Source: Pseudobutyrivibrio sp. MD2005 (lineage in GTDB: Bacteria; Bacillota; Clostridia; Lachnospirales; Lachnospiraceae). Taken from it: a stretch of 64,000 nucleotides of DNA. Location: positions 124,001 through 188,000 of the forward strand of contig NZ_JHXE01000001.1 in assembly GCF_000621865.1 (NCBI RefSeq). The letters are read 5' to 3'. Shown piece by piece: positions 16,805 to 38,594 of this stretch (its first letter is position 1; every line of letters begins with the position of its first letter). The notes under the pieces were generated by a model that did not search any database, had not been told where the DNA came from, and worked only from the letters and a program-made list of their open reading frames with translations. Made by a program: the position numbers and the translations under genes.

Positions 16805-16846
16805 AACAGCGGTACTTTGCGAATAGCAAAATATCGCTGTTTTTTT
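16805..16846 (+). terminator. Leader terminator upstream of the surface protein gene
   Basis: AACAGCG (16805-16811) and CGCTGTT (16835-16841) enclose 23 bp that themselves fold, with TTTGC pairing GCAAA. The result is a nearly continuous 16-bp stem with one mismatch, then a run of seven T. It ends only 8 bp before the ATG at 16855. It may end the upstream transcript or act as an attenuator in the leader of the next gene, since a TATAAT (16767-16772) lies upstream of it. The two half-sites and the 23-bp spacing equal those in the array at 36386-36756. Confidence 0.75.
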
Positions 16847-36069: not shown

Positions 36070-36340
36070 CAGTGCGGCCGCTACTGCGGCTCGCACTGTT
36101 CAATTCTAATCCCACCACAGTAACAAAAGAGAAATAGCCCTTGGCACTGCCTAGCCTGACGGCCAGAGGCAGTGCCAAAATAAAAGAAAAAGGTATGACT
36201 TCTTGCTGACAGAACAATGAAATTGTCAGCAAGAATCCTGCTTTGCAGGACATGAAAATAGATAAATCTATTTTCATGGTATTTACGATTCCTGAAAAAC
36301 TGATGTTTTTCAGGAATCTATATACTGTCGCCAGGCCGTC
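36070..36340. ncRNA. Candidate structured RNA or multi-hairpin repeat element
   Basis: Six consecutive perfect hairpins: H1 36070-36098, H2 36141-36178 (12 bp), H3 36201-36234 (11 bp), H4 36236-36250 (6 bp), H5 36251-36278 (13 bp arms), H6 36287-36318 (14 bp, 4-nt loop). The loop of H2 contains GACGGCC (36158-36164), exactly complementary to unpaired GGCCGTC at 36334-36340, giving a potential pseudoknot. No stem contains a wobble or mismatch that would reveal the transcribed strand, and no clear promoter or terminator is visible. The minus strand has a 113-codon ORF across the whole element, which I treat as spurious. The density of perfect stems strongly suggests RNA structure or a mobile hairpin element. 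Confidence 0.6.
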
Positions 36341-36385: not shown

Positions 36386-36756
36386 CGCTGTTAGAAATTT
36401 TGTAGAAGCGGCGTGTAAACAGCGCAAAGGGCTATAAAAATAAAAAGCACTGTTGGAATAAGAATGGAAGTAAGCAGTTTTACCGCTAAACAAGAAATGT
36501 TAATGATTAACGCTGTTTAAGTCTTATAAAAAAACAGCGTAAGGAATCTAATAAATCGCAAGCGCGGTGATGATAAAGGATTCTTATAGATAAAAACAGT
36601 ACATAGATTCAATAATTATAAATACGCTGTTTTGCGAGACATTATATTAATTATCAAACAGCGTAAAAATATTGCTAAAAGCATAAACGCTGTTTAAGGA
36701 GATTTGCAATAGGTGACAGGACAGCGCTTTCAATAACTCAATATGATTACACTGTT
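36386..36756. repeat. Array of 13 phased 7-bp inverted half-sites (CGCTGTT / AACAGCG)
   Basis: CGCTGTT-type half-sites begin at 36386, 36448, 36511, 36563, 36625, 36688 and 36750. The inverted AACAGCG-type half-sites begin at 36418, 36481, 36533, 36595, 36657 and 36720. Seven of the 13 are exact, the others have one to three changes. The gap from AACAGCG to the next CGCTGTT is 23 bp five times and 24 bp once; the other gap is 25, 26, 15, 25, 25 and 25 bp. The single short gap is 10 bp (about one helical turn) shorter, so the phasing survives. Intervening sequences are unrelated. The array ends 34 bp before the nuclease-like gene. Architecture parallels the array at 2002-2252. Confidence 0.88.
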
Positions 36757-36790: not shown

Positions 36791-37600
36791 ATGAAAGAAA
36801 TTATAAAGCAAATAGAAGAATATAAGATTTTGATTAACAATCTAATAATTAAAACGAATAAAGGTATCACAAAGGCGAAAAAATTTGACGGAAAACATAT
36901 CCAACATAGTCGAAGCCATGGATTAGAGCAACTTTATTGCTACGATACTAGCACCCAAACTCGCAAGTACATCAAATCTTCAGACATCATCAAATACGCC
37001 CCAATAATTCAGCGGGACTACGACCTCTCAGTAAACAAAACCCTCCTGAAAATCCAAAAGAAATTAACAAGGATATCCAAAGACCTTAAGGAAGTGGATT
37101 TAGAGCTGGTTAAATAAATCTACGAGAAACAAGCTCAATCAAAAAAGACATTTATCACTCCGATTATAGAAAGTGACGAAGCTTTCATTAGCCGCTGGTA
37201 TGAAGAAAATCAGGGTGGGCAAAATAGCTATCCAATAGAAAGTAATATTTATACTTCTAAAGGCGAGAAGGTGCGGTCTAAGTCGGAAAAAATCCTAGCT
37301 GATCTCTTTCATAAATACGATATTCCTTATGTGTATGAGCCCAGGCTAAAACTTGAGAATGGTCAAAGCTTGTGTCCAGATTTTGCAATACTAAATAAAA
37401 GAACTAGAAAGACTATTTACTGGGAACACTTAGGGCTGATTGACCAGGGGGAGTATGCAGTTAGAACAATGGAAAAGTTCCATGAGTACGAGAATAATAA
37501 CCTGCGACTAGGGGAGAATTTGCTGCTGTCAATGGAATCCTCAAAGAGCGGCCTAAATATGAAAATAGTAGAAAATCAAATAAAAATGAAATGCATGTAA
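36791..37600 (+). pseudogene. PD-(D/E)XK nuclease-like gene split by an in-frame stop
   Basis: One reading frame runs from ATG 36791 (GGAG site 6 nt upstream) to TAA 37598-37600, interrupted only by TAA at 37115-37117; the sequence after that stop continues as good protein (IYEKQAQSKKTFITPIIES). The 108 residues before it are helical and Lys-rich (KEIIKQIEEYKILINNLI, then LLKIQKKLTRISKDLKEVD) like a coiled coil. The later part carries a PD-(D/E)XK-type pattern: RSKSEKILADLFHKY, YEPRLKLENGQSLCPDFAIL (D of PDF) and IYWEHLG. This family is common in gut Firmicutes as an unassigned protein. The gene is probably inactivated, unless a GTG at 37271 restarts the C-terminal half. Confidence 0.75.
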
Positions 37601-37688: not shown

Positions 37689-38594
37689 ATGAATAAAGCA
37701 CAAGCAAAGAAAATCCTTGGTCTTACAGGTGCAGAGACACCAAAGGAAATAAAAAGTAAATATAGAAAACTGATGCATGACTATCATCCAGACAATACCC
37801 AAAATGATGCTAGTTCAAAGACCGCTGCCAAAATTAACACAGCCTATGAGCTTTTAAAGGATGGTTTTGCCAAAAGTGAAGTAAAGTCTTCTAAAAATAA
37901 GAAAACTCAAACAGTCTGGAAGGCAAAAGAAAACAAAAATGCATTTACAGAAAGACCGATACTGCATCAGATAGAAGACTATGATGGTGAAGTAATCGGC
38001 ACAATTGAAGTTGCCAGAGGTAAATATATTTGGACGATGGATGAAGAATTTCCAATGTTTTTAAAGAGTGTTTACGAAACAGCAAAAGATTTGCTGATAG
38101 ATGCTAGAGGCATTGGCAATGAGCCTGCAGAAATAACAAAGCAAAAGTATTTGGCGGACCTTACGTACCTTCTCACTAGCCAGTATATTGATGGGCTTAC
38201 AAGCCTTCAACAACTTGCAACCAAAGAAGGCTCTGATTTTAAAGTGTCTGCAATGCTTGAAATGGAATCAGATAAAGCTATTCCAAAGGTTGGAACATCA
38301 CTTTATCCAGCAGGGATTACAAATCATAGACTATATATTCGAAATATATCTGGGGAGATACTTGGATATTTAAGTTTCAAGGATGATAGGCTGTATTATG
38401 TAATTATTCCATTGTTAGAAGGTCACGCAGTGCAAGTGAAGATGCAGGTGGTGGAGAAGAAACTAAAAGCAAGATCAAAAGGAAGATATGCAGAAGTTGC
38501 ATTGTGGTTAAGATTAAATAAAGAAAGAAAAACAGATATTGAGAGTAAAAATCTTAAGATAGAAGAGTTGCTAAGAGCCTACGCTCAGCAATAA
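37689..38594 (+). CDS. J-domain (DnaJ-like) protein of unknown partner
   Basis: A 301-residue protein with an N-terminal J domain (residues 1-60): AKKILGLTGAETPKEIKSKY, the catalytic HPD motif at 33-35 in DYHPDNTQ, and AKINTAYELLKDG. It would stimulate the ATPase of an Hsp70. The G/F-rich and zinc domains of true DnaJ are absent; instead a Lys-rich linker leads to a 200-residue unknown domain (SLYPAGITNHRLYIRNISGE region). It follows the broken nuclease gene and may belong to the same accessory block. The ribosome binding site is AGGA, close to the ATG. Confidence 0.8.
   Translation: MNKAQAKKILGLTGAETPKEIKSKYRKLMHDYHPDNTQNDASSKTAAKINTAYELLKDGFAKSEVKSSKNKKTQTVWKAKENKNAFTERPILHQIEDYDGEVIGTIEVARGKYIWTMDEEFPMFLKSVYETAKDLLIDARGIGNEPAEITKQKYLADLTYLLTSQYIDGLTSLQQLATKEGSDFKVSAMLEMESDKAIPKVGTSLYPAGITNHRLYIRNISGEILGYLSFKDDRLYYVIIPLLEGHAVQVKMQVVEKKLKARSKGRYAEVALWLRLNKERKTDIESKNLKIEELLRAYAQQ

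Follow-up and report, generated by a model that had tools for sequence, protein, structure and literature searches.

Arrays of short, alternately inverted half-sites accompany the genes of one predicted nuclease family, and the array at positions 36386-36756 of the DNA analysed here is a worn member of this array family in gut bacteria. The analysed DNA, called the window below, is a stretch of 64,000 nt from Pseudobutyrivibrio sp. MD2005 (assembly GCF_000621865.1, contig NZ_JHXE01000001.1, positions 124,001-188,000 of the forward strand). The arrays probably serve as docking sites in duplex DNA for the PD-(D/E)XK-like protein that is usually encoded alongside them, and from the sequence patterns we infer binding, cleavage and mobility.

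Thirteen alternating half-sites, CGCTGTT and AACAGCG, with set gaps between them had been described in the original prediction, and all of them were found at their positions (Table 1). Seven half-sites match exactly; of the others, three differ by one letter, two by two and one by three. The successive gaps are 25, 23, 26, 23, 15, 23, 25, 23, 25, 24, 25 and 23 bp, and the distances from one forward half-site to the next are 62, 63, 52, 62, 63 and 62. Shuffled sequences stayed far below the array: seven strictly alternating exact 7-mers were counted within 380 bp, compared with a maximum of four in 5000 dinucleotide shuffles, and among tiles across the whole window more than three were found at 36386-36756 and 2002-2252 only. 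CGCTGTT occurs 14 times on both strands of the window (seven times within the array) versus 4.8 expected, a number reached in none of 100 shuffles, and outside the window it was found as a single pair only. A lone AACAGCG-N23-CGCTGTT pair with the gap class of the array is located at 16805-16841 of the window. The general search for 8-mers with one mismatch gave a chain of four at 36386-36756, which is not above its own shuffles, nor was the array called when the window was scanned for chains of exact 7-mers; because both searches miss it, the array has to be regarded as degenerate. The case for its being real depends on the 7-mer tests and the intact relatives. The original prediction had named absence of conservation in any relative as a point that would speak against it. 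At the level of letters this absence is real, as DNA homologous to the array was found in none of the 28 other species of the genus; the design, in contrast, is found again in relatives.

Table 1. Positions in the window of the two arrays, the individual half-sites (F, CGCTGTT; R, AACAGCG) and the adjoining gene
Feature	Start	End	Strand	Remark
Alternately inverted 7-bp half-sites CGCTGTT/AACAGCG, n=13	36386	36756	.	degenerate
Half-site F, exact	36386	36392	+	
Half-site R, exact	36418	36424	-	
Half-site F, 1 mismatch	36448	36454	+	
Half-site R, 3 mismatches	36481	36487	-	by eye, from spacing only
Half-site F, exact	36511	36517	+	
Half-site R, exact	36533	36539	-	preceding gap 10 bp shorter (~one helical turn)
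Half-site F, 2 mismatches	36563	36569	+	
Half-site R, 2 mismatches	36595	36601	-	
Half-site F, exact	36625	36631	+	
Half-site R, exact	36657	36663	-	
Half-site F, exact	36688	36694	+	
Half-site R, 1 mismatch	36720	36726	-	
Half-site F, 1 mismatch	36750	36756	+	
Second array, 8 half-sites GTATCACT/AGTGATAC, 4 units	2002	2252	.	no family gene beside it
Family gene, ~265 aa, coiled coil and PD-(D/E)XK-like	36791	37600	+	one in-frame TAA at 37115-37117

The array stops 34 bp before the PD-(D/E)XK-like gene, whose ATG is at 36791, exactly as had been proposed. The gene runs in one frame in two pieces, 36791-37117 and 37118-37600 (open reading frames 36791-37117 and 37271-37600). Its intact relatives encode about 265 aa, composed of a helix, a three-stranded sheet, a long helix and a PD-(D/E)XK-like domain. 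The AF2 model of an intact paralogue from the host genome had a pLDDT of 93.8, and Foldseek placed DrdV second among its matches (probability 0.98, E 0.03), with no match at E 0.001 or better. E183, D197, E212 and H213 are invariant in 68/68 members; the conserved acidic core residues of the PD-(D/E)XK nuclease fold are present, and both the fold and a nuclease activity are predicted on the basis of the model. In 64 of the 68 members the N-terminal part has a net positive charge. No Pfam or NCBIfam family fits, and single members match weakly. Nine copies of the gene are present in the host genome, the family was matched in 28 of 29 genomes of the genus, and the nuclease domain was matched in 52 of 150 sampled genomes of Lachnospiraceae, at least three of them solely via proteins longer than 1100 aa. 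The matched nuclease stretch contains a stop or a broken frame in five of the 80 named loci (L081, L122, L087, L088 and L105), and therefore loss of the gene recurs. A viral origin was considered and rejected: the eight viral relatives have open frames of 747-1353 aa, several of them cut by contig ends, and their loci contain no chain above five, the DNA before the frame being covered in four of the eight (chains of 2-3).

Association of arrays with the PD-(D/E)XK-like gene is general, as had been suggested from the window. We called an array when a chain of at least six alternating 8-mers was present, one mismatch being allowed, in 86 loci made up of 78 of the 80 named loci, the window and seven copies from the host genome; L089 and L108, with less than 150 bp upstream, were left out. 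Such chains were found upstream of the gene in 49/86 loci and downstream in 3/86, and shuffles gave 1/860. The calls depend on the chain threshold, and 37 of the 86 loci are below it on the upstream side, including the window and host copy C7, both with chains of four. The near-duplicates L065 and L080 are kept in this count and left out of the period and wobble counts given below; without the two near-duplicates the upstream number is 47/84. Chains of at least four exact 7-mers gave the same picture in the 80 named loci, with 28 upstream and two downstream and 1/80 in the best of 20 shuffles, and 29 of the 32 chains of this type in 599 kb end no more than 700 bp upstream of the gene, while two of the remaining three repeat the upstream half-site. 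The longest chains have 21 half-sites. In the host genome, eight of the nine gene copies have an adjacent array, called as a chain or seen by eye, and two of these arrays are downstream. The ninth copy, C5a, has no visible array and its upstream side is cut by a contig end, where positions 1-350 of L039 read, by eye, like what we take to be the start of an IS110-type transposase. The upstream arrays of the host copies share a common design and have differing half-sites; half-sites also differ between most loci, and TACGGTT is common to one related clade. Arrays are located just downstream of host copies C17b and C10, and on both sides of the gene in L063. Contig ends within 1 kb of the match were found upstream in 21/80 loci versus 3/80 downstream, an excess which is expected if arrays break assemblies.

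The neighbouring genes that recur in the 89 loci, named by eye, are an ABC-type ATPase (16), rplM (13), rpsI (13), an RNA-methyltransferase-like gene (8) and a truA-like gene (6), and they look like synteny. The proposed association with J-domain and methyltransferase genes was not borne out: a J-domain gene stands beside the family in the window only (1/89 loci), the methyltransferase gene of the window was matched in 2/89, and both were rejected as partners. The J-domain protein gene of the window lies downstream of the nuclease gene at 37689-38594. Other repeats were also observed close to gene copies. Several perfect hairpins in a row at 36198-36320 of the window make up a dispersed repeat, about 120 bp long, which is present in near-identical form beside host nuclease copies C17a and C10, and a long hairpin, CTTGGCACTGCC ... 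GGCAGTGCCAA, was seen by eye just before the window repeat at 36140-36179. In L042, a large near-perfect palindrome, also seen by eye, is located just before the GTATCACT array of host copy C5b.

Restriction-modification controller proteins hold down transcription in operator fashion, and the arrays could likewise be operators only, bound by the nuclease or another repressor in order to hold down a dangerous gene. The excess of arrays directly upstream (49 versus 3 downstream in 86 loci) agrees with this explanation, as do some arrays which, by eye, lie between promoter-like sequence and the start codon. On the other side are the arrays located downstream (C17b and C10) or on both sides of the gene (L063), the chains of up to 21 half-sites and the arrays away from the gene that have, by eye, no constant relation to neighbour genes, and we consider an operator function alone unlikely. 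Linkage to a methyltransferase or controller gene, by which restriction-modification systems with controller operators would be recognised, was not found as a feature of the 89 loci. If the arrays are docking sites, the gene-adjacent array would be the home site of the protein and may in addition control the gene.

Arrays were also found away from the gene. The arrays at 36386-36756 and 2002-2252 are of one kind and belong to a family of elements, in agreement with the original prediction. The GTATCACT half-site of the latter forms 28 half-site pairs in eight groups across the host genome (G000), one of them near family gene C5b, and its pattern was found in none of the 28 other species of the genus. 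In seven of these groups, four units make up an array of 250-252 bp, or about 24 helical turns. In the inner spacers G/C at places 5-7 and A/T at places 9-13 recur when units 3 and 4 are reversed, and the other letters differ; this column count covers 24 of the 28 inner spacers, four with 18 instead of 17 bp being left out, and the orientation of units 3 and 4 was picked by eye beforehand. C4a and C4b are copies of each other, 84% alike in the spacers, and their similarity stops at the array ends, the flanks being unrelated. The similarity between L188 and L189, from another genome, is 72-81% in several registers and lies mainly within the array extent. No target-site duplication was found for the arrays. 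Where both flanks of the C2 or C4 array had listed matches in a sister genome, they were on different contigs or far apart, and therefore the insertion point is not readable; no clean empty site was found. Behind recR, a chain above four is present in none of the 28 other species (three of them with at most 250 bp of downstream DNA), and therefore the array there was either gained or brought in by a rearrangement. The DNA behind recR differs among the sister species compared.

Two half-site classes were found away from the gene, GTATCACT and TACGGTT; in the host genome CGCTGTT and GTATCACT were followed by pattern. When the TACGGTT array alone was searched for, it was found in 7 of 397 genomes. 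Six of these seven hold the nuclease family, and all six have a copy with TACGGTT sites upstream. In G374 and G377, TACGGTT sites are beside a broken gene, and the intact copy of G374 is without a TACGGTT site. No family gene was found in G356, whose TACGGTT array is located at a contig start. A TACGGTT triple was found in two viral stretches, in which a simple motif scan detected no nuclease motif. When 464 kb of the host genome (about 15%) were scanned de novo, two eight-site arrays were detected, those at 2002-2252 and of the ACTACATA class, besides an irregular chain of six, a length which was reached once in 1160 shuffles. The ACTACATA array (L308:4700-4970) has symmetric gaps of 33, 41, 32, 52, 32, 41 and 32. 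The first of its units doubles as a perfect hairpin and, with the T-run behind it, resembles a terminator. No family gene was found for the ACTACATA class, and host copy C5a was rejected as its cognate, for its two exact sites lie within a coding gene. The sister species G018 has a chain of six with a related half-site, AGTATGAC/AGTATCAC, at positions 1372-1539 of L300.

The arrays away from the gene bear on an architectural or anchoring function, in which the protein would bend or bridge chromosomal DNA at arrays and the nuclease fold would be secondary. The uniform GTATCACT arrays, seven with four units in 250-252 bp and inner spacers in which the A/T tract keeps its position, and the preservation of half-sites in copies away from the gene are what such a function would produce. 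The invariance of E183, D197, E212 and H213 in 68/68 members makes catalysis look selected, and 0/28 sister species have the half-site pattern or a chain above four behind recR; both speak against this explanation, which we hold to be quite improbable. If the arrays are docking sites of an active nuclease, the scattered arrays with the home half-site would be satellite sites, which are kept and occasionally copied as units, perhaps by nuclease cleavage and repair, much like the relation proposed between RAYT enzymes and REP repeats. The array at 2002-2252 would be such a satellite, since its half-site equals that of the array near C5b elsewhere in the host genome, and the one at 36386-36756 would be a home array which is decaying and has an interrupted gene copy next to it.

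Half-sites are better kept than spacers in five of six related pairs (union mode), a comparison in which motif-based site finding favours conservation somewhat. The identical letters are 73/75 in half-sites versus 109/171 in spacers for L188/L189, and 63/64 versus 158/186 for C4a/C4b; L064/L065 is the exception, with no better preservation of half-sites than of spacers (p 0.77, union mode). The arrays might be without function, being ordinary tandem repeats in decay or MITE debris that happens to lie close to a common gene, as several of them are plain tandem repeats, the C4a/C4b copies are limited to the array and L188/L189 are alike mainly inside it, but this is very improbable because half-sites outlast spacers in these five pairs, and neither the association with one protein family nor quantised periods are expected of debris. 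Ordinary tandem duplication, which the original prediction had raised against itself, is part of the picture: in several arrays the units are repeated in tandem and the spacers resemble each other, whereas the better kept half-sites and the quantised spacing do not fit it. As compared to insertion sequences and MITEs, the similarity of C4a and C4b ends at the array ends, and neither a target duplication nor a clean empty site was seen.

The half-site consensus of 50 arrays is about 6-9 bp and varies between loci. Half-site similarity and protein identity are correlated in 37 loci (Mantel r 0.33, reached in 0/5000 permutations), with r 0.40 for the N-terminal part (0/5000) and 0.26 for the C-terminal part (1/5000). 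Joint inheritance could give part of this covariation. In the pair L103/L110, the proteins are 80% alike and the half-sites are different.

The spacing of the arrays follows the turn of the DNA helix. The periods of the 50 arrays are 52-55 bp (30 arrays), 62-65 bp (7), 72.5-75 bp (6) and 83.5-85 bp (4), and the remaining three are 58, 79.5 and 106 bp, so that they cluster near 53, 63, 74 and 84 bp, equal to 5-8 helical turns. The original prediction that helical phase is kept was borne out. The best-fitting repeat for the 50 periods is 10.45-10.5 bp, a value in which the relatedness of loci inflates the 53-bp class; when this class was collapsed to one value (n=21), the best repeat was 10.55 bp with p 0.0005 after scanning repeats, against a null of uniform periods between 50 and 109 bp. 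Within arrays, the spacing departs by values near 8-13 bp in L064, L124, L128 and the window, while the departures are off the helical turn in L071 (5), L119 (6), L083 (18, 35 and 53) and L085 (26.5), and mixed in L132 and host copy C8. In the RNA wobble test of the 50 arrays, 41 wobble-keeping and 53 wobble-breaking transitions were counted (p 0.26), besides 109 transversions, and Rfam gave no match on the main arrays of nine loci. The periods near whole helical turns and the negative wobble test point to arrays that work at the DNA level. That transcribed array hairpins guide or inhibit the nuclease in a CRISPR-like or type III toxin-antitoxin-like manner, as might be thought from the frequent location of the array in a possible 5' leader, from inverted half-sites that could pair as stems and from a Clostridiales-1 RNA match (RF01699, L103:7667-7889) which overlaps a 4-site GATTTGC chain by 43 bp about 3 kb from the nuclease gene, is very improbable in view of the wobble count, the spacing which tracks the B-DNA turn, the arrays downstream of the gene and the Rfam result.

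In the docking mechanism that we favour, the basic N-terminal part (helix, three-stranded sheet and long helix) would bind one half-site per protomer, and a protein dimer would take an inverted half-site pair. The dimers are proposed to line up on one DNA face because the pairs repeat every whole number of turns. The aligned dimers may bend or wrap the DNA, a proposal in agreement with the constant position of the A/T tract in the GTATCACT spacers.

Several known systems resemble the nuclease arrays in part. Like CRISPR, they have short, regularly spaced repeats, variable spacers and a nuclease gene alongside; in contrast to CRISPR, the repeats measure about 6-9 bp and alternate in orientation, and no recurrent partner gene beyond synteny was found in 89 loci. 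In type III toxin-antitoxin systems a repeat array is located upstream of a toxin-like gene, whereas the arrays described here can be downstream, show no RNA pairing signal and accompany a PD-(D/E)XK-like fold. The ends of the PADLOC PDC-S68 models align with the C-terminal nuclease domain in 21 of 22 members, but these models have about 1200 aa and the present family about 265 aa.

The closest parallel in organisation is that of the REPtrons, i.e., REP/REPIN repeats and BIMEs with their RAYT/TnpA-REP enzymes. They consist of dispersed extragenic palindromic repeats of alternating orientation and a dedicated endonuclease gene flanked by its own repeat, and the enzymes are repeat-specific where several repeat families coexist (PMC3733652, PMC3116915, PMC2817692, PMC8266576). 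Both systems have in common dispersed, alternately oriented repeats with a dedicated enzyme gene beside them. Dispersed copies sharing the motif that flanks the enzyme gene were found for GTATCACT (eight groups) and TACGGTT (6/6), and were not seen for CGCTGTT. The HUH/Y1 tyrosine transposase of REPtrons is absent, the present family being PD-(D/E)XK-like and Pfam having matched no transposase family in 22 members, and so is the GTAG- or CGTC-tagged REP hairpin of 20-40 bp, instead of which there are half-sites of about 6-9 bp that share no tag, with GTAG in single classes. Unlike REPtrons, the nuclease arrays are helix-phased, have chains of 6-21 and a half-site that varies by gene copy, and show no sign of a pairing constraint. 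As compared to REPtron mobilisation, only similarity bounded by the array was seen, and no target duplication was found. The nuclease arrays are not filed under REPtrons because protein, repeat and spacing differ; the system is most likely a DNA-binding nuclease with docking arrays of its own, REPtron-like in its logic and built of unrelated parts.

The nuclease-array family has apparently not been described before; no earlier description was found among the matches listed, as judged from titles and abstract openings of openly accessible journal papers. We tentatively suggest, as a possibility rather than the expected outcome, that it is a new kind of nuclease-array system of Lachnospiraceae and some Treponema, in which each paralogue has its private half-site, forms phased nucleoprotein arrays on duplex DNA (one class being globally palindromic) and spreads or maintains satellites that drift except for protein contacts and A/T-tract positions, and arrays and DNA-binding domains coevolve fast. 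Such quick coevolution may be likened to that of eukaryotic satellite DNA and its binding proteins. If the docking explanation is true, the arrays and the nuclease would form a widespread protein-DNA partnership (28/29 genomes of the genus and, for the nuclease domain, 52/150 of the family), providing dozens of naturally matched proteins and half-sites from which DNA recognition could be worked out, with a helical phasing that is readable from sequence alone. The arrays may also explain contig breaks (21/80 upstream versus 3/80 downstream). Besides RAYT and REP, this partnership would be a possible second route by which a chromosome comes to hold dispersed palindromic elements tied to one enzyme.
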